Below the pieces are notes generated by a model. The model searched no databases. It was not told the DNA's origin and saw only the letters and a list, made by a program, of their open reading frames with translations. Made by a program: the position numbers and the translations under genes. From the NCBI RefSeq assembly GCF_001399755.1, contig NZ_LJCP01000011.1, forward strand, positions 1 through 64,000: 64,000 bases of DNA. The letters are read 5' to 3'. This DNA is from Thiohalorhabdus denitrificans (GTDB taxonomy: Bacteria > Pseudomonadota > Gammaproteobacteria > Thiohalorhabdales > Thiohalorhabdaceae). Shown here in pieces: positions 5,735-48,190 of this stretch (positions are counted from its first letter, which is position 1; the number at the start of each line of letters is the position of its first letter).

Positions 5735-6179
5735 GTAGGAGCGGCTATCAGCCGCGACCGGGTTGTCGGGCCGGGGGCCATCCAACCGAAAGGCGTCGCG
5801 GCCGATGACCGCTCCCACAGGGGGGCTGGCCGGGGATGCGGATTCCGGTTTGATTTGGGGCGGAATTGGGCCGGTCGCGACGGGGGCCGTCGCTCCTACA
5901 ACGGCTGGATAGGCCCGTAGGAGCGACGGTCTCCGTCGCGACCACCGGCCGGGCCCCATCTGCCGAGAAAGACCTGTAGGAGCCCAGCTCTGCTGGGCGA
6001 TGGCCCGATTCGGGAATCGCCCGCTAAAGCGGGCTCCCACGACGGCAAATGAGGCCCCTTTAGGAGCAGCGGTCTCCAGACCGCGACCGCAAAGGCCCGT
6101 TCGGGCATATCGCGAGCTGGAGCTCGCTGCTACACCTTCAATTGGGCCACTTGTAGGAGCGGCGGCCCCCGCCGCGACC
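5735..6179. repeat. Cluster of nine REP palindromes between cusC and cusB
   Basis: Copies: 5735-5759 (+), 5795-5818 (-, GTGGGAGC variant), 5873-5899 (-), 5917-5943 (+), 5976-6000 (+), 6017-6040 (- variant), 6060-6088 (+), 6110-6134 (-), 6153-6179 (+). They fill the 532-nt gap (5676-6207) between two genes that should be one operon, and nothing else is seen in that gap. Several neighbours face each other in inverted orientation, as in REPIN/BIME arrangements. Confidence 0.9.
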
Positions 6180-8047: not shown

Positions 8048-8203
8048 GGTCGCGGCGGGGCCGCCGCTCCTACCCCAGCGGGACAGGCCCGTAGGATCGG
8101 TTTCCAGGCGACGACGGCTTTTAGCCCTCCGCCGAGGTCGCGAGCTGGAGCTCGCTCCTACACCTACGGTTCGGCTCCCGTAGGAGCGGCCGTCCCGGCC
8201 GCG
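8048..8203. repeat. Three REP palindromes downstream of nsrR
   Basis: Copies: 8048-8073 (-), 8136-8161 (-, GAGCTCCAGCTC stem) and 8180-8203 (+). The last ends 4 nt before the nsrR stop codon region, so it lies at the 3' end of that transcript. A degenerate copy may exist near 7992-8010. Confidence 0.85.
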
Positions 8204-11434: not shown

Positions 11435-11845
11435 GTAGGAGCGACGGCCCCCGTCGCGACCGCTTCAATTCCTTGACTAACCAGCAGCGGGGGGCGCTGC
11501 AAAGCGCCCACCACCGTCCAGCCCCCCACCCCGAACGAAGGTGTAGGAGCGAGCTCCAGCTCGCGACCGCTACCCAGTTGCGCCAGTTTAACCGGCAGCG
11601 GGCCTGCCGCAGGGCAGGCACCGCCACCCAGTTGCGCCAAACTTACAAGCGGCGGGGGCGCTGGAGAGCGCCCCCCTACCCGAACGGGCACGCCGGATGG
11701 ATGCCCTGCGATCCCGTGGCTGGTTCATTTGGCGAAACCGGGTCGCGGCCTGGAGGCCGCTCCTACAGGGGCCCCGTTCAGGCCTCCCGTCCCTTGCCCG
11801 GGAGGTCCGATTCCGGCAGGCCGCGAAGGGGGCCGTCGCTCCTAC
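11435..11845. repeat. REP cluster between senC and orf1
   Basis: Copies: 11435-11461 (+), 11543-11568 (+, GAGCTC stem), 11741-11766 (-) and 11821-11845 (-, degenerate at one foot). With three hairpins of a second type they occupy the whole 454-nt gap between senC and the membrane gene; no coding sequence is seen there. Confidence 0.88.
11492..11675 (+). repeat. Second-type hairpins following REPs (three copies)
   Basis: Perfect inverted repeats with 4-nt loops: 11492-11509 (GGGCGCT / AGCGCCC), 11602-11619 (GCCTGCC / GGCAGGC) and 11654-11675 (GGGGGCGCT / AGCGCCCCC). The first two begin 30 and 33 nt after the ends of plus-oriented REPs at 11461 and 11568. The linkers share the wording CAGTTGCGCCA before an A/C-rich run and (C/G)AGCGGG. 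Further copies are at 16979-16996 and 18956-18973. Confidence 0.75.
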
Positions 11846-11870
11846 AACCGGCTCATAGGGGAGGGGCGTC

Positions 11871-12464
11871 ATGACGCGATCCACCCGCAACTGGCTGGCG
11901 GCGGGCATCGGCATGTGGGCGCTGCTCGCCCTGTCCCCCGTGCGCACCGGCCTGGAGGCCACCCTGGCCGGCCACATGGCCGCCCAGCTGCCGCTGCTGG
12001 TGGCGGCGGGCTGGTGGCTGGGCCGGGGGCTCGGGCCGGTGCGGGCGGACGAGCTGGCCGGGTTCAACCGGCACGGCGCCCCCGGCGTGCTGCTGGCTGC
12101 CTTCACCCTGGCCTTCTGGCTCCTGCCCCGCTCGCTGGACGCCGCCCTCCAGGAGCCCGCCTGGGAGGTCGCCAAATTTCTGGCCCTGCCCCTGCTGGCG
12201 GGGGTGCCTTTGGGCCGCAGCTGGCCCCGCCTGCCGGGCCTGGCCCGCGCTGCCCTCTGGGCCAACCTGATCCCCATGCTGGGGGTGATGGGCTGGCTCT
12301 ACATCCAGTCGCCGGTACGGCTGTGCAACAGCTACCTGATCGATCAGCAGGATCTGCTGGGGTGGGTGCTGCTGGGGATCACGGGGATGCTGGCGCTGTA
12401 CTGGGTGGGGTGGGCCTTCTTCGGCGGGCTGGGACGCGCGGTGGCCACGGACCGGGCCCGCTGA
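11871..12464 (+). CDS. Polytopic membrane protein, orf1-like partner of norSY-senC
   Basis: Integral membrane protein (197 aa) with about five hydrophobic helices and a conserved-looking GHMAAQLPLLVAAGWWLG segment reminiscent of CtaG-like assembly factors. No catalytic motif is seen. Its place after senC fits the orf1 of norSY-senC-orf1 clusters, so a role in assembly or copper insertion of the NorSY enzyme is inferred. The start ATG follows GGGGAGGGGCGTC. The gap from senC may mean separate expression or a transcript reading through the REP hairpins. Confidence 0.75.
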   Translation: MTRSTRNWLAAGIGMWALLALSPVRTGLEATLAGHMAAQLPLLVAAGWWLGRGLGPVRADELAGFNRHGAPGVLLAAFTLAFWLLPRSLDAALQEPAWEVAKFLALPLLAGVPLGRSWPRLPGLARAALWANLIPMLGVMGWLYIQSPVRLCNSYLIDQQDLLGWVLLGITGMLALYWVGWAFFGGLGRAVATDRAR

Positions 12465-12470
12465 ATCGAC

Positions 12471-12542
12471 ATCGCGGCCGAGACGGCCGCTCCTACAAGG
12501 ACAAACGGGGCACCTGTAGGAGCGGCGTCCTCGCCGCGAGCC
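12471..12542. repeat. Inverted REP pair between orf1 and the OM protein gene
   Basis: Copies at 12471-12496 (-) and 12516-12542 (+) lie back-to-back with their GTAG feet facing, 19 nt apart. They sit between the convergent 3' ends of orf1 and the OM barrel gene, where a bidirectional 3'-end hairpin would be useful. Confidence 0.88.
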
Positions 12543-12552
12543 GTTTCCCACG

Positions 12553-13062
12553 CTAGAAGTGCACCAGCACGCCGCCGGTGAGCTGATCGAAGTCCGAATC
12601 GTAGCGGGTGTGCTCCAGGAAGGCGGAAAGCTGGCTGCTGATCCGATACTGGCCGCCCAGGCCCCAGCTCACCCACACATCCGAATCGCTGCCTCCCACC
12701 TCGGGATCGGCATCCACCCAGGCCAGCCCCAGCCGGGCCTTAAGGGACACTCGCCGGTTCGGCAGCGGCACCATGTAGGTGGCGTAGCCGCCCAGGGTGG
12801 TGAAGCTCGTATCGACGCCGTTGGCCCCCTCCGGGTCCATGAGTGAGGTGGTCAGCTCGCCCTCCACCCCGAAGCCCGGGGTCACCCCGTCCAGCTGGGC
12901 GCCTGCCTTGGCCGCGATGCCGAGGCCGTCGTCGTGGCCGGTGGCGGACTGGATGCCCACGCCACCGCCGAAGTAGACGGGGTTCTCCGCCCCCACCGCC
13001 GGGGCGGCGGCCGTCAGGCCGGCCACCATCGCTCCCAGGACCAGCTTGCGTTGCATGTCCAT
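12553..13062 (-). CDS. Small outer-membrane beta-barrel protein (OmpA-like porin fold)
   Basis: Exported protein (169 aa) with a signal peptide (residues ~1-25, ending AAPAVGA). Alternating hydrophobic/polar strands (VYFGGGVGIQSATGH, YATYMVPLPN, AFLEHTRYDSDF) suit an eight-stranded barrel, and the C-terminus ends VLVHF with the terminal Phe recognised by the BAM complex. It resembles the generic OMP beta-brl family; no enzymatic residues of PagL or PagP are evident. Function unknown. It is transcribed alone toward the REP pair. AACAGGGGGGAT lies before the start. Confidence 0.75.
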   Translation of the reverse strand: MDMQRKLVLGAMVAGLTAAAPAVGAENPVYFGGGVGIQSATGHDDGLGIAAKAGAQLDGVTPGFGVEGELTTSLMDPEGANGVDTSFTTLGGYATYMVPLPNRRVSLKARLGLAWVDADPEVGGSDSDVWVSWGLGGQYRISSQLSAFLEHTRYDSDFDQLTGGVLVHF

Positions 13063-13222
13063 CCCCCCTGTTTGGGTGTATGTGATCGAGGGCGTACCCT
13101 CTTGACTGTTTCCGGTACGGCGGACACCGCACCGAGGCCGTCCATATCATGCCAGCCCCGTTGTCCGAAATCACCTGCCGCTGGCTGGCGACACCCGAAC
13201 CCGGAGGGACCGCCCGACGACC

Positions 13223-14725
13223 ATGCTCACCGGCTCGCAGAATCTGGCCCTGACCCTCCTCGGCTGGATGGCCACCGTGTTCATCGTGGTGGTGGGCGCG
13301 GCGGCCCTGGCCCTGGTGATCGTCTTCGTCCGCGACATCACCCAGAACCGCCACGCCATCCACCGCAACTTCCCCGTGATCGGGCACATGCGCTCCCTGC
13401 TGGAGCTCCTGGGGCGCTTCTTCCGCCGCTACCTGTACGCCATGGACCGCGAGGAGCTGCCCTTCAACCGCGCGGAGCGCAGCTGGGTCTACAGCGCCGC
13501 CCGCAACCGGCCCGGCACGGCCGCCTTCGGCTCCACCAAGGACATCCGCCGACCCGGCACCATCCAGTTCAACAACTGTCCCTTTCCCACCCTGGACACG
13601 GACTCCTGCGCCCCCTCCCCGGTCACCATCGGGCCCCATTGCGCCCGTCCCTACAACACCAGCGGGCTCTTCCACGTCTCCGCCCTCAGCTACGGCGCCC
13701 TGTCCCGACCCGCCATCCAGGCGCTGTCCCGCGGCGCGGAGCGGGCCGGTTGCTGGCTGAACACCGGCGAGGGCGGCCTGTCCCCCTACCACCTGGAGGG
13801 CGACTGCGACCTGGTCTTCCAGATCGGCACGGCCAAGTACGGCGTGCGGGGCCCCGAGGGCGGACTGGACGAGGGGCGGCTGCGGGAGGTGGCCGGGCAC
13901 GAGCGGGTGCGCATGTTCGAGCTCAAGCTGGCCCAGGGCGCCAAGCCGGGCAAGGGGGGCATCCTGCCGGGGGTGAAGGTGACCCCGGAGATCGCCCGCA
14001 TCCGCGGCATCCCGCCCTACCGGGACGCCATCAGCCCCAACCGCCACCCGGAGGTGGACAGCGTCCCCGAGCTGCTGGACATGATGGAGCGGGTCCGGGA
14101 GGTCACCGGCAAGCCCACCGGCTTCAAGATGGTCATGGGCGACCCGGACTGGCTCGATACCCTGGCCGCCGAGATCCACCGCCGCGGCCCGGAGGCCGCC
14201 CCGGACTTCATCACCCTCGACGGGGCCGAGGGCGGCTCGGGCGCGGCGCCCATGAGCCTCATGGACAACATGGGCATGGCACGCACCGAGGCGCTGCCGA
14301 TCCTGGTGGAGAAGCTCGACGCGCACGGCCTGCGGCCGCGGGTGCGGGTGATCGCCTCCGGCAAGATGGTCACGGCGGAGGGCGTGGCCTGGGCCCTGGC
14401 CGTAGGCGCGGACTTCGTCGCCTCGGGGCGGGGCTTCATGTTCGCCCTGGGCTGCATCCAATCCCTGCGCTGCGACCAGGACACCTGCCCCACCGGCATC
14501 ACCACCCACAACCCCCGCCTGCAGAAAGGCCTCGACCCGGCCGACAAGGGGGAACGGGTGCGCCACTACGTGGACCAGATGACCCACGAGGTGGGCACCA
14601 TCGCCCACGCCTGCGGCGTCCACGACCCCCGCGAGCTAAAGCCCAAGCACGTGCGGCTGGTGACGGGACCGGGGCGGTCGGTGAATTGGGGGGAGCTTTT
14701 TGAGCGGAGGGGTGTGGGGGCGTAA
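13223..14725 (+). CDS. FMN-binding glutamate-synthase-family membrane-anchored oxidoreductase
   Basis: GltB/GOGAT FMN-domain protein (500 aa) without the amidotransferase domain. An N-terminal TM helix (~12-38) precedes the TIM-barrel domain. Visible signatures are SALSYGALSRPAI, ELKLAQGAKPGKGG, TLDGAEGGSGAAP (FMN phosphate region) and CIQSLRCDQDTCPTG (Fe-S type Cys cluster). Stand-alone proteins of this type are widespread and their physiological reaction is poorly defined, so glutamate synthesis should not be assumed. It is monocistronic, with a REP 24 nt after the stop. GGAGGG lies ~14 nt before the ATG. Confidence 0.88.
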   Translation: MLTGSQNLALTLLGWMATVFIVVVGAAALALVIVFVRDITQNRHAIHRNFPVIGHMRSLLELLGRFFRRYLYAMDREELPFNRAERSWVYSAARNRPGTAAFGSTKDIRRPGTIQFNNCPFPTLDTDSCAPSPVTIGPHCARPYNTSGLFHVSALSYGALSRPAIQALSRGAERAGCWLNTGEGGLSPYHLEGDCDLVFQIGTAKYGVRGPEGGLDEGRLREVAGHERVRMFELKLAQGAKPGKGGILPGVKVTPEIARIRGIPPYRDAISPNRHPEVDSVPELLDMMERVREVTGKPTGFKMVMGDPDWLDTLAAEIHRRGPEAAPDFITLDGAEGGSGAAPMSLMDNMGMARTEALPILVEKLDAHGLRPRVRVIASGKMVTAEGVAWALAVGADFVASGRGFMFALGCIQSLRCDQDTCPTGITTHNPRLQKGLDPADKGERVRHYVDQMTHEVGTIAHACGVHDPRELKPKHVRLVTGPGRSVNWGELFERRGVGA

Positions 14726-14748
14726 AGCACTTGCCGTAAAACGAAGGT

Positions 14749-14774
14749 GTAGGAGCGGCCTCCAGGCCGCGACC
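14749..14774 (+). repeat. REP immediately upstream of the RAYT gene
   Basis: Begins GTAGGAGC and ends GCGACC with a perfect GCGGCCT / AGGCCGC stem. It ends 13 nt before the RAYT start, and the RAYT Shine-Dalgarno follows directly. The inverted sequence recurs exactly at 11741-11766. Confidence 0.93.
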
Positions 14775-14787
14775 AAAGGGGGGAGCC

Positions 14788-15297
14788 ATGATGGCTACCA
14801 CGGGGGCTGCTCGCGGCCAGCACCAACTACGCAAAGGCCGGGTATCCATCGGGGGACAGGCCTACATACTGACAACCGTAACCAACCAACGCCGGCCGGT
14901 TTTCCGCAACATCAAGGCCGCCCGGTTAGTGGTGAGCACTTTGCGCCACCAGCAAGACGCTGGAAGGGCGTATTCTCTGGCCTATGTGCTCATGCCGGAC
15001 CACCTGCATTGGATGGTGATCCTAAAGGGCTCAACCAGCCTGGACGGACTAATGCGGTCGGTGAAATCCTACAGCGGAAGGCAAATCAAATCGCTGTTCT
15101 CCGAGGACGAGGCGCCCGTATGGCAAGCCGGGTTTCACGACCGGGCCCTGCGGCGGGACGAGGACCTCCTCCAAGCCGCCCGCTACATCGTGGCCAATCC
15201 GTTAAGGGCGGGATTGGCTGAAAGGGTGGGAGATTATCCCCATTGGGATGCCGTGTGGCTGGGAGAGGGTGACGGGCCGGACTGGATCCTTGGTTAA
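14788..15297 (+). CDS. RAYT: REP-associated tyrosine transposase (TnpA-REP, Y1 family)
   Basis: IS200/IS605-like Y1 HUH protein (169 aa). The HUH motif is H72-L-H74 (LMPDHLHWMV) and the likely catalytic Tyr is Y133 in ARYIVANPLRAGL, both intact. RAYTs are domesticated single-copy transposases that bind and nick REP hairpins at a GTAG foot; every REP here starts with GTAG or GTGG. The gene lies between a plus REP (14749) and a minus REP (15301), as expected of a RAYT locus. Shine-Dalgarno GGGGGAG precedes the ATG. The gene looks intact, so it may still act on the REPs of this genome. Confidence 0.93.
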   Translation: MMATTGAARGQHQLRKGRVSIGGQAYILTTVTNQRRPVFRNIKAARLVVSTLRHQQDAGRAYSLAYVLMPDHLHWMVILKGSTSLDGLMRSVKSYSGRQIKSLFSEDEAPVWQAGFHDRALRRDEDLLQAARYIVANPLRAGLAERVGDYPHWDAVWLGEGDGPDWILG

Positions 15298-15300
15298 CCG

Positions 15301-15422
15301 GGTCGCGAGCTGGAGCTCGCTCCTACACCTTCGCTCAACATTGGTGGGGTCCAGGCAGAGCTCTTCCCGAAAAGGGTCTCGCCCTTTAGCGAGGGTGTAG
15401 AAGCGGCCTCCCGGCCGCGACC
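15301..15422. repeat. REPs downstream of the RAYT
   Basis: 15301-15326 (-, GAGCTC stem) begins 4 nt after the RAYT stop and faces the upstream copy, bracketing the gene. 15397-15422 (+) has one change in the foot (GTAGAAGC) and ends 14 nt before the hisC stop. Between them an AAAGGG / CCCTTT hairpin (about 15371-15387) is also visible. Confidence 0.88.
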
Positions 15423-15435
15423 TTCCGGCTAGCTC

Positions 15436-16500
15436 TCACCCGCCGGAAATGCCATCCAACACCCCCAACAACGCCTCATTCTCCTCCGGCGTGCCGATGC
15501 TGATGCGCAGGCCGTCGGCGAGCTCCTCGTCCGGGAAGTAGCGGATCAGGATGCCCCGCTCCTTGAGGGCCTCGTACCAGGGGCGGGCGTCGCCGTGGGG
15601 GACGCGGGCGAAGAGGAAGTTGGCCTGGCTCTCCGCCACGCGGAAGCCGCGCTCGCGCAGGGCCTGGGTCATCCGGGCGCGCTCGGCCACCACCGCGTCC
15701 AGGTTGGGCCGGTAGGCGTCGAGGTTGTCCAGGGCGGCCGCGGCGCCGGCCTGGGCCAGGGCGTCCACGTTGTAGGAGTCGCGCACCTTGTGCAGCTCGG
15801 CAGCCACCTCGGGATGGGCGAAGCCCAGGCCCAGGCGCAGGCCGGCCAGGGAGAAGCCCTTGGAGAAGCTGCGCGTGACGATCAGGTTGGGGTGCTCGGC
15901 GAGCAGTGCGAGGCCGTTGTCGCTCGCGAAGTCGGCGTAGGCCTCGTCCAGGACCACGGGGGCGTCCACCGCCCGGCACAGCGCCGCCACCTGCTCCAGT
16001 CCGCAGGCGAAGCCGAAGGGGGCGTTGGGGCGGGTGATGAACACCAGGGCCGGATCCGCGTCGGCGATGGCGCGAACCAGCAGGGAGCCGCCCACGCCCC
16101 AGGGCACCTCGCGGTAGGCGCCGCCCTGGATGTTGGTGAGCGTCTCGTAGAGGGAGTAGGTGGGCGCGGGGGCCACCACGTTCTCCCCGGGCCCCACGAA
16201 GGTGCGCAGCAGCATGGTGAGCAGGTCGTCGGAGCCGTTGCCCACCACCACCTGGTCGGGGTCGAGGCCGTAGGCGCGCGCCGCCGCCTCGCGCACGGGC
16301 CGGGCGTCGGGGACCGGATAGCGCCGCAGGGCCTCGCCGGCCGCCGCCTCGCGGAGGGCGTCCAGCACCACCGCCGGGGCGGGATAGGGGTTCTCGTTGG
16401 TGTTGAGCTTGATGACGCGCTGGCCCGGGGCGGGCTGCTCGCCCGGCTGGTAGCCGGCCATGGCCCGGATCCCGGGGCGCACCCAGTCGGAAATTGACAT
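15436..16500 (-). CDS. hisC: Histidinol-phosphate aminotransferase
   Basis: Fold-type I PLP enzyme converting imidazole-acetol phosphate and glutamate to histidinol phosphate (354 aa, normal length). Signatures: LNTNENPYPAP near the N-terminus, VVGNGSDDLL (PLP phosphate loop), DEAYADF, and the PLP lysine in SFSKGFSLAGLRLG. No other his genes are adjacent, so it may be the stand-alone HisC copy common in proteobacteria, perhaps also serving aromatic aminotransfer. It is divergent from the cupin gene. Confidence 0.94.
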   Translation of the reverse strand: MSISDWVRPGIRAMAGYQPGEQPAPGQRVIKLNTNENPYPAPAVVLDALREAAAGEALRRYPVPDARPVREAAARAYGLDPDQVVVGNGSDDLLTMLLRTFVGPGENVVAPAPTYSLYETLTNIQGGAYREVPWGVGGSLLVRAIADADPALVFITRPNAPFGFACGLEQVAALCRAVDAPVVLDEAYADFASDNGLALLAEHPNLIVTRSFSKGFSLAGLRLGLGFAHPEVAAELHKVRDSYNVDALAQAGAAAALDNLDAYRPNLDAVVAERARMTQALRERGFRVAESQANFLFARVPHGDARPWYEALKERGILIRYFPDEELADGLRISIGTPEENEALLGVLDGISGG

Positions 16501-16571
16501 GCCTTGCCTGCCCTACCCTACACTGACGCGCATTTGCCGAACCCCACCCCACCACCGAGCGAGGAGAGGCC

Positions 16572-16850
16572 ATGAGCCGCATCGAAGTCCGCCAGCCCAG
16601 CGAGGAGGAGCTCCGCGACCTCGGGGTCTTCGACTGGCCGATCTGGGAAAAGGGGGAATCCCGCTTCCCCTGGACCTACGACGAGCAGGAGGTCTGCTAC
16701 CTCCTCCAGGGCCGGGTCACCGTAGAGCCCGAGGAAGGGGAGCCGGTAACCTTCGCCGCGGGCGACCTGGTGACCTTCCCGCAGGGGATGAACTGCACCT
16801 GGGACATCCACGAGGCGGTGCGCAAGCACTACCAGCTCGGCGAGGAGTGA
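16572..16850 (+). CDS. Small cupin-domain protein
   Basis: Single-domain cupin (92 aa) of the Cupin_3/DUF861 type: WTYDEQEVCYLLQGRVTVEP and GDLVTFPQGMNCTWDIHEAVRKHY give the two cupin motifs, although the canonical His residues are mostly replaced, so metal binding is doubtful. AGGAGAGGCC precedes the ATG. Substrate unknown. The REP cluster follows its stop. Confidence 0.85.
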   Translation: MSRIEVRQPSEEELRDLGVFDWPIWEKGESRFPWTYDEQEVCYLLQGRVTVEPEEGEPVTFAAGDLVTFPQGMNCTWDIHEAVRKHYQLGEE

Positions 16851-16880
16851 GGCCCTGGACGGTGGGGAGCGCTCTGCAGC

Positions 16881-17044
16881 GGTCGCGCCGGGGCCCCGCT
16901 CCTACGAGCCTATCCCGCGCCGGTAGGAGCGACGGCCCCCGTCGCGACCACTTCAACTTCCTGACCTAACGAGCAGGGAGGCGCTGCAGAGCGCCTACGT
17001 CTTGCAACCGGTCGGGCAGGTCGCGAGCTGGAGCTCGCTCCTAC
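16881..17044. repeat. Three REPs and one second-type hairpin
   Basis: REPs at 16881-16905 (-, imperfect), 16923-16949 (+) and 17019-17044 (-, GAGCTC stem). A second-type hairpin at 16979-16996 (AGGCGCT, loop GCAG, AGCGCCT) begins 30 nt after the plus REP. They fill the gap between the convergent cupin and DUF3579 genes. Confidence 0.88.
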
Positions 17045-17061
17045 ACCTTCGATCCGGCCGC

Positions 17062-17424
17062 CTAGCTCGGCTCCTCGGCCTCCAACTCCTCCACCAGCTC
17101 CTGAAGCTCCGAGACGCCGCAGGTCCGCGGAATTCGGAGGCGGTTGGCGCGAGCGAAGCTCACCAGCTGCTGGAAGAGCTCGGGGCGTTCCTCGCGCAGG
17201 GCGGGGTCCACCAGCAGCCCCTTCACCCCCTTGTAGACGGTGGGCTTGATGTACGGGGAATAGTGGAGGCGGTTATCGTCGCCAAAGGTGGCGGCGTTAC
17301 CGGCGAAGCGCTCGACCCAGTCGCTGGGACGGAACTTGCCCCCGCTCTGGGTGACGCCCTCGACAATGATCATGCAAGGGTCGTCCTGGATCCTGGCTAC
17401 GTCGTTGCCCTCATGCTCGGTCAT
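17062..17424 (-). CDS. DUF3579 family protein
   Basis: Soluble protein (120 aa from the ATG at 17422-17424) with the DUF3579 pattern: MIIVEGVTQSGGKFRPSDWVERFAG, YSPYIKPTVYKGVKGLLVD and a Leu/Glu-rich C-terminal helix. Proteins of this family are common in beta- and gammaproteobacteria and uncharacterised. The open frame extends upstream to 17535, but the family domain starts just after the internal ATG, which has an AGGA element nearby. Confidence 0.8.
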   Translation of the reverse strand: MTEHEGNDVARIQDDPCMIIVEGVTQSGGKFRPSDWVERFAGNAATFGDDNRLHYSPYIKPTVYKGVKGLLVDPALREERPELFQQLVSFARANRLRIPRTCGVSELQELVEELEAEEPS

Positions 17425-17697
17425 GGCCGGTGCGTATCCTGTTCGGTCGGCGATTCCGGGAAGCCGTCCTCGCCTCGAAGGGGCGATCGATTTTTCGGAG
17501 GGGGGCCGGGCCAGTGGCCTCGGAGATGATCCCACAAAACGGCCGCCGCGTTCAATTGCCGGCCCCGCCCCGGGGGAACCGGGACGGCCGGCTTGTACCG
17601 CGGGCGGCCGTTGGGCAATACTGCCCCGCCTTCGGGCCGGCGGATGGACGCCGCCTCGGCGTTTGGTGCGAACCGAATCAACCTAACGGAGCCCGCG

Positions 17698-18750
17698 ATG
17701 CGCTATAACCCGCTTGGCAACAGTGGTCTGCAGGTGTCGGAGATCTGCCTGGGCACCATGACCTTCGGTGACCAGAACTCCCGCGAGGACGCCCATGCCC
17801 AGATCGACCGGGCGCTGGAGCGGGGCATCAACTTCATCGACACCGCCGAGCTGTACCCGGTTCCGCCCAAGGCGGAAACCCACAGCCGCACGGAGTCCTA
17901 CATCGGCGACTGGATCGCCAAGAACCCCGGCAAGCGCGGGGACATCGTGCTCGCCACCAAGGTGGTGGGCCGCTCGCAGATGCTGCCGTGGATCCGGGGC
18001 GGCGACGAGCTGCCGGTGGTGGACCGCAGCAACATCGAGCGGGCCATCGAGGGCAGCCTGAAGCGTCTGCAGACCGACTACGTGGACCTCTACCAGATCC
18101 ACTGGCCGGACCGGAACGTGCCCAAGTTCGGCGAGGCGCGGTTCGATCCGCAGCGCGAGTGGGAGGCCCACCCGGTCCGCGAGCAGCTCGAAGTGCTGAA
18201 GGAGCTGGTGGACGCCGGCAAGGTCCGCTACATCGGCCTGTCCAACGAGACGCCCTGGGGCGTTATGCAGTTCACCCGCATGGCGGAGGAGCACGGCCTG
18301 CCGCACGTAGTGTCCGTGCAGAACGCCTACAACCTCATCAACCGCGCCTTCGAGAACGGCCTGGACGAGGTGAGCTACCGCGAGAACGTGGGCCTGCTCG
18401 CCTATTCGGTGCTGGCCTTCGGCCACCTCACCGGCAAGTACCTGGACGGCGGCCAGCCCGAGGGCGCCCGCCTCACCCTCTATCCAGACTTCGGCAACCG
18501 CTACGCCAAGCCCGGGGTGGAGCCGGCCTGCCGCGAGTACGTGAACCTGGCCCGGGAGGCGGGCCTGGACCCGGCCCAGATGGCCCTGGCCTTCGTCCGC
18601 CAGCAGCCCTTCACCACCAGCACCATCATAGGCGCCACCACCATGGAGCAGCTCGACGCCGACATCGACAGCGCCGAGGTGACCCTGGGCGACGACCTGC
18701 TCGCCGCCATCGACGACATCCACCGGCGGTATACGAACCCGGCGCTGTAG
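17698..18750 (+). CDS. tas: Aldo/keto reductase, Tas-like
   Basis: NADPH-dependent (beta/alpha)8 aldo-keto reductase (350 aa). Tas-like features: MRYNPLGNSGLQVSEICLGTMTFG, catalytic Asp/Tyr in DTAELYPVPP, Lys in ATKVVG, His in QIHWPDRN. The frame is open further upstream, but the ATG at 17698 has ACGGAG upstream and matches the family N-terminus. Substrate unknown. A strong terminator follows. Confidence 0.92.
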   Translation: MRYNPLGNSGLQVSEICLGTMTFGDQNSREDAHAQIDRALERGINFIDTAELYPVPPKAETHSRTESYIGDWIAKNPGKRGDIVLATKVVGRSQMLPWIRGGDELPVVDRSNIERAIEGSLKRLQTDYVDLYQIHWPDRNVPKFGEARFDPQREWEAHPVREQLEVLKELVDAGKVRYIGLSNETPWGVMQFTRMAEEHGLPHVVSVQNAYNLINRAFENGLDEVSYRENVGLLAYSVLAFGHLTGKYLDGGQPEGARLTLYPDFGNRYAKPGVEPACREYVNLAREAGLDPAQMALAFVRQQPFTTSTIIGATTMEQLDADIDSAEVTLGDDLLAAIDDIHRRYTNPAL

Positions 18751-18773
18751 GGGGGATCCGCGGAACCCGGCAG

Positions 18774-18807
18774 AAAAGGCACGGAGTGCGCCTCCGTGCC
18801 TTTTTTT
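18774..18807 (+). terminator. Intrinsic terminator after the aldo/keto reductase
   Basis: Perfect 9-bp stem GGCACGGAG (18778-18786) / CTCCGTGCC (18792-18800), 5-nt loop, then seven T. Four A precede the stem, so it could work in the other direction too. Confidence 0.93.
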
Positions 18808-18849
18808 GGCCTACGCCTCGAAGGCCCCACCTCTCGGCCCCTGGATGGT

Positions 18850-18973
18850 TGTCGCGACGAGGGACCGTCGCTCCTACGGGCCTGTCCGGCGTCGGTAGGA
18901 GCGACGGTCCCCCGTCGCGATCGCTATCCAGTTTCGCCAATTCAAAGCGCAGCGAGGGCGCTGTAGAGCGCAC
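18850..18973. repeat. REP pair and a second-type hairpin
   Basis: REPs at 18850-18877 (-) and 18895-18922 (+) face each other 17 nt apart, both of the GCGACGG stem class. A second-type hairpin at 18956-18973 (GGGCGCT, loop GTAG, AGCGCAC with one mismatch) begins 33 nt after the plus REP, with the linker CCAGTTTCGCCAATT. They lie between convergent genes. Confidence 0.87.
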
Positions 18974-19002
18974 ACCAGACTAATCGGCGCCTGGCCTTTC
19001 CC

Positions 19003-48165: not shown

Positions 48166-48190
48166 GTAGGAGCCCACTTCAGTGGGCGAT
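48166..48190 (+). repeat. REP downstream of lhr
   Basis: GTAGGAGC then CCACTTCAGTGGG and GCGAT; a partial inverted copy of the stem (CCTGAAGTGGGCGCCTAC) follows at about 48197-48214, giving a REPIN-like pair. Confidence 0.75.

Follow-up and report, generated by a model that had tools for sequence, protein, structure and literature searches.

How a second, different palindrome came to stand at a near-constant distance behind several GTAG REPs is the question raised by the window, the 64,000 nt stretch analysed here (contig C11:1-64000 of G000, a genome of 2.87 Mb). The first-pass annotation had placed such a hairpin after the REPs ending at 11461, 11568, 16949 and 18922, and this was confirmed, with the stems located (Table 1). 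The genus comparison covers three genomes, G000 and its sisters G001 and G002, one of the three being 82% complete. Three covariance models were used, their E-values being rough: R1, of the hairpin part, built from window units and two units on contig C7; R2, built from 18 units, with u1, u3, u4 and u5 in its training set; and R3, built from G002 units alone and searched against G000 and G001 as an independent test. The best 150 candidates were scored per genome, and the best 14 per genome in a class-wide search.

Table 1. Coordinates of REPs, hairpin units and the RAYT gene in the window, followed by related units elsewhere in the genus.
Feature	Position	Strand	Details
GTAG REP of cassette u1	11435..11461	+	strict REP pattern
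Hairpin unit u1	11462..11512	+	linker 11462-11491; stem 11492-11498/11503-11509; loop GCAA
GTAG REP of cassette u2	11543..11568	+	strict REP pattern
Hairpin unit u2	11566..11627	+	outer stem 11598-11601/11621-11624 (GCGG/CCGC); bulged A 11620; inner stem 11602-11608/11613-11619; loop GCAG
Hairpin unit u3	11620..11681	+	follows u2 in tandem (period 54 nt), without its own REP; hairpin 11654-11675
Minus-strand REP 11741-11766, then degenerate unit u6	11682..11766	-	R3 match 11749-11682
REP left of RAYT gene	14749..14774	+	strict REP pattern
RAYT gene (REP-associated tyrosine transposase), 169 aa	14788..15297	+	NF047646, 148 bits against a cut-off of 80; PF01797
Inverted REP right of RAYT gene	15301..15326	-	strict REP pattern
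Minus-strand REP (16883-16905) fused to right half of unit, u7	16857..16905	-	linker deleted; read directly: CGACCGCTGCAGAGCGCTCCCCACCGTCC
GTAG REP of cassette u4	16923..16949	+	strict REP pattern
Hairpin unit u4	16950..16998	+	stem 16979-16985/16990-16996; loop GCAG; CTAC at end
GTAG REP of cassette u5	18895..18922	+	strict REP pattern
Hairpin unit u5	18920..18980	+	stem 18958-18962/18967-18971 (5 bp); loop GTAG
G002 units, mostly tandem, immediately upstream of tRNA-Leu/Pro/Ser	C63:4803-5197; C37:16835-17117; C166:534-703, 1839-2007; C58:2637-2698
Units downstream of tRNA-Pro(cgg)	G000 C7:154479-154595; G001 C2:166607-166665		opposite orientation relative to tRNA
Tandem family units, no tRNA found within ~1.5 kb	G002 C146:2266-2423

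GTAG REPs and the RAYT locus

GTAG-tagged REPs, REPINs and BIMEs with RAYT have been described before (Nunvar 2010, PMC2817692; Di Nocera 2013, PMC3733652; REPINs, PMC3116915), as have the concentration of REPs around the rayt gene and hybrid BIMEs containing REPs of two RAYTs (PMC2817692). RAYT is known to recognise REP DNA in single-stranded form and to cut it at GTAG (PMC3733652). The first hairpin of the window belongs to the GTAG REPs: it is intergenic, with GTAG at one end of an imperfect palindrome, and present in high copy number. The strict REP pattern has 129 matches in G000 and 0 for a reversed-pattern control; the REPs there are often paired in inverted orientation as REPINs, with a usual length of 70–75 nt. 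Pattern searches gave 22 REPs in G001 and 1 in G002, the latter indistinguishable from chance. Alternating REPs with repeated inter-REP segments, as in a BIME, are found at 16883-16998 and 18852-18975, each as a minus-strand REP, 17 nt, a plus-strand REP and a hairpin unit.

The spacer CTACGGGCCTRTCC is common to head-to-head REP pairs (window 5900-5916, 8074-8090, 16906-16922 and 18878-18894; G000 C7:47900) and represents a repeated BIME junction, the copy at 16906 having one base different. Another REP flavour is seen at window 5976-6000 and 48166-48189, with a stem of CCCAGC..GCTGGG or CCCACTTCAGTGGG after GTAGGAG. Elsewhere in G000 (C9:130703-130812, C9:143306-143412 and C8:129454-129562), REP pairs surround a different long hairpin (CCCGCC-tttgc/tgtgc-GGCGGG), so that other hairpins may also be captured between REPs.

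The RAYT gene is intact, matches TnpA-REP (PDB 4er8, E 2.5e-5) and lies between a plus-strand REP before it and a minus-strand REP after it, the arrangement expected of REP-RAYT association. The locus is like known GTAG REP/REPIN/BIME systems in its GTAG head, palindrome, ACC-type tail, inverted doublets and REP-RAYT-REP order, and unlike known REPINs and BIMEs in that its second palindrome is a unit of an unrelated tRNA-linked family rather than a REP. The orthologous region is colinear in G001 and G002, and RAYT is absent there; the spacer corresponding to that of u4 is ~36–43 nt in the sisters versus ~220 in G000, and no unit was found in the other two spacers of G001 and G002, though G001 has GTGGG-type REPs there. 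As the sister sites hold neither RAYT nor units, RAYT and the cassettes are lineage-specific among the three genomes. Two more RAYT paralogues occur in G000, at C14:66616-67050 and C14:204795-205253 (46% and 55% identity to the window RAYT), and no hairpin units were found near them.

A hairpin unit with tRNA-linked relatives

Judged by sequence, the linker and the second hairpin are a single unit of 54–56 nt. A G002 unit, written on the strand of the window units, reads CCAGTTTCGCCAATCTAAACGATACGGGGGCGCGCTGAAGAGCGCGCACCCCG, and its first part is the linker seen after window REPs; the window linker CCAGTTTCGCCAAT is likewise that of the G002 tRNA-Leu(caa) array. Since the G002 unit begins with the same linker, the linker goes with the hairpin and not with the REP, and the near-constant distance between REP and hairpin reflects the internal length of the unit. 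The linker pieces that the first-pass annotation had described as shared are real and recur in the G002 arrays, but they are parts of this unit and not of the REP. Missed in that reading were the unity of linker and hairpin, and the units following the minus-strand REPs at 11741-11766 (degenerate) and 16883-16905 (a deleted form). The tandem pair at 11566-11681 adds a fifth unit to the four hairpins noted.

In the unit, an inner stem of 7 bp carries a 4-nt loop, and a bulged A and an outer stem of ~5 bp complete the structure. In the 18-unit alignment both sides have changed in 8 of 12 pairs, a covariation score reached by 0 of 500 shuffles, although the array copies are related to each other and the score thus overstates independence. 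Unit u2 matches this structure in full, linker included, and is the top R3 match in G000 (E 3.3e-9, with a model built from G002 units only), followed by the pair at tRNA-Pro(cgg) on C7 and solitary units on C6 and C10. With R2, which had all four in its training set, E is 1.6e-11 for u3, 6.3e-10 for u5, 1.3e-8 genome-wide for u1 (match 11456-11516) and 9.2e-7 for u4. R3 scores are weak for u5, u1, u6 and u4 (E 4e-4 to 0.02 within the window, with 0.011 for u6 and 0.022 for u4), and the outer stem is reduced in u1, u4 and u5; as these three reach only 0.03 (u1), ~1 (u4) and 0.018 (u5) genome-wide with the G002-only model, their membership leans on u2 and u3 and on mutual similarity. The remnant u7 has a 38-nt inverted match of 82% to u1 plus the right flank of u1.

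Outside the window, the family occurs in the genus mainly as tandem arrays in tRNA-gene leaders and spacers. The G002 arrays, found by R1, include seven units of period 55 nt before tRNA-Leu(caa) and five before tRNA-Pro(tgg), with further units before tRNA-Leu(gag), tRNA-Leu(cag) and tRNA-Ser(cga). Each tRNA-adjoining unit in G002 (53–56 nt) carries a copy of the 5' acceptor strand of the tRNA beside it, and in the arrays the outer stem makes use of this copy (GCCGGGG for Leu(caa), GCGCGGG for Leu(gag) and Leu(cag), GGAGGGG for Ser(cga)); the tRNA-Pro(cgg) units of G000 and G001 repeat the tRNA 3' end CACCCCGACCA. Read in window-unit orientation, the piece derived from the tRNA is in every case 3' to the hairpin. 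Inspection by eye suggests that the G002 Leu(caa) array sits between promoter and tRNA, the G000 promoter directly preceding its tRNA. No tRNA was found in the window, nor within ~1.5 kb of the units on C6, C10, G001 C4 and G002 C146.

In the class-wide search of 369 genomes (best 14 candidates scored in each), convincing matches came only from this genus; three matches outside it (E 1.4e-4 to 6.2e-4) were put down to chance, as reading them showed no array and no tRNA. The family appears, as far as searched, to be confined to the genus. Rfam at gathering thresholds gave no match, and no precedent for tRNA-flanking repeat arrays was found in the literature, searched as open-licence papers. The tandem repeats of E. 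coli tyrT (rtT RNA) lie beside a tRNA gene and contain a piece of the tRNA end, and in both respects they are like the family described here; they differ in that units here are 54–56 nt with one hairpin each, have an acceptor-based outer stem and accompany several different tRNA genes. A tRNA-linked family with outer stems matching the acceptor of the neighbouring tRNA appears to be undescribed.

Several other identities were considered. Searches with exact hairpin and linker patterns brought up the window copies and background matches alone and at first suggested a purely local repeat, which was overturned by the covariance models showing a wider family. Across the 2.87 Mb, GGCGCTNNARAGCGC is found exactly 5 times, 4 times in the window stretch and once in an apparent coding sequence; a near match adjoins tRNA-Pro(cgg) on contig C7. 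An intrinsic terminator was ruled out by eye, as the T-run is absent after the second hairpin. The integron attC, likewise a single-strand hairpin site, for recombination, of similar length, was dropped, since paired RYYYAAC/GTTRRRY ends were not seen by eye.

The first hypothesis took the second hairpin for an inverted REP that has diverged, and the whole for an ordinary REPIN, a reading suggested by a length of 72–81 nt, close to the common 70–75 nt, and by CTAC (the complement of GTAG) at the end of u4 and of the G001 copy. It was abandoned once the G002 arrays were seen, is disfavoured by the R3 result and is now very improbable: hairpin and linker match tRNA-linked units and not REPs, and units in G002, which is essentially REP-free, have the same inner stem, loop and bulged A. 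The second hairpin lacks both REP-family similarity and dependence on RAYT, as it matches the tRNA-linked units and is abundant in G002, where REPs are essentially missing and no RAYT was found.

Independence from REPs and joint copying

The R2 unit counts are 9 in G000, 3 in G001 and 20 in G002. The 9 of G000 comprise 5 in the window stretch and 4 that are REP-free, namely two at tRNA-Pro, one on C6 and one on C10, and no RAYT was found in G002 despite its 20 units. With 20 units in a genome of essentially no REPs or RAYT, and 4 REP-free units in G000, the hairpin is not an obligate partner of the REP. Solitary copies, which the first-pass annotation had named as evidence against its own composite, are thus present in numbers. 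A dedicated mobile element of two palindromes, in effect a genuine BIME whose two parts always travel together, would account for the near-constant spacing and for the joint duplication of u1/u4 and u2/u5; it is largely refuted by the solitary copies and is quite improbable, given that most units in the genus are REP-free (C6, C10 and C7 in G000, and all those of G002) and that only a handful of ~130 REPs carry the unit. Of the 51 G000 REPs that lack a following REP, 7 are trailed at that distance by a hairpin of 6 bp (shuffles ~1.0), and the only family members among the 7 are u1, u2 and u4 in the window, u5 having a stem of 5 bp. As single-stranded DNA, the four REP-hairpin composites fold more stably than dinucleotide shuffles (z -3.0 to -4.5).

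What stands of the composite is local joint duplication. The REPs of u1 and u4 are 100% identical and their units 81% identical (z 9.5), in flanks that are unrelated (z 1.6 and 0.8); the units of u2 and u5 are 70% identical (z 7.8), again with unrelated flanks. Alignment thus indicates that REP and unit were copied together locally, the similarity of u1/u4 and of u2/u5 stopping at the cassette ends, GTAG on one side and the hairpin on the other. The upstream REP-bearing segment is also common to u4 and u5 (z 5.0), and ~20 nt of right flank is common to u7 and u1, the right end being not always sharp. Every REP-unit cassette found in G000 lies between 11.4 and 19.0 kb, less than 4 kb from the RAYT gene. 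A related composite occurs at a non-orthologous place in G001: the REP at C3:245243 is followed by one unit (E 4e-5 with R2 over 14.5 kb), then by another recognised by eye, and an inverted REP closes the row. Its blastn match is 101 nt at 71%, and with the models the composite is weak (R1 E 0.08 genome-wide; unlisted by R2 at 0.01).

The pairing could instead reflect a target preference, in which REPs inserted repeatedly beside pre-existing hairpin units and nothing was copied jointly. Unit boundaries do carry ACC like REP tails, so that the hairpin of a unit lying upstream could be replaced by a REP, and the REP stem of u2 is unlike the others. This is nonetheless unlikely, as u1 and u4 share an identical REP and 81% of the unit in unrelated flanks, none of the tRNA-linked or solitary units read has a REP beside it, and the bare unit is absent from the orthologous sites of G001 and G002.

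A REP-hairpin cassette and its possible origin

The explanation that best accommodates these observations, and one that is reasonably probable, is a BIME-like chimera in which a GTAG REP has captured a tRNA-linked hairpin unit and spread locally, probably by RAYT. In the window lineage, GTAG REPs would have gained one or more units on their tail side, giving a chimeric cassette of 72–81 nt that consists of REP, ACC, linker, hairpin and CAC or CTAC, and this cassette would then have been copied into no fewer than three intergenic sites, all within 4 kb of the RAYT gene and its flanking REPs. The most likely course is that RAYT made its cut in single-stranded DNA at GTAG, on the side of the REP, with the second hairpin standing in for the inverted partner REP of a REPIN. 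The length of the cassette, close to that of REPINs, and the CTAC ends of u4 and the G001 copies suggest that the hairpin acts as an inverted REP, a resemblance noted after the fact and in small numbers. The CTAC tag is present at u3, u4 and both G001 units, and absent at u1, u2, u5 and, at the cassette-end position, in all of the tRNA-linked units read. With few events and two clear duplicate pairs, segmental duplication or REP-REP recombination without RAYT is a possible route to the same arrangement.

A more tentative reading, with a rather modest chance of being right as a whole, joins the capture of the hairpin to its life at tRNA genes. Undescribed hairpin elements would settle at these genes, either upstream, with the promoter on one side and the tRNA on the other, or immediately behind the CCA end, where the local acceptor strand would become half of the outer stem and the other half would be rewritten to pair with it, so that the element is re-tailored for each tRNA; RAYT in the window lineage would have recruited one such element to form the right end of a mobile chimera.

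In the prevailing view, the building blocks of REPINs and BIMEs are REPs that belong to one RAYT or to several. A foreign hairpin, joined to a REP and copied around a lineage-specific RAYT, would show how new REP-type elements originate and what the transposase requires at its second end. The parent family would in turn be a test case for the adaptation of a hairpin to its insertion site, and for any effect of such arrays on tRNA expression or processing.
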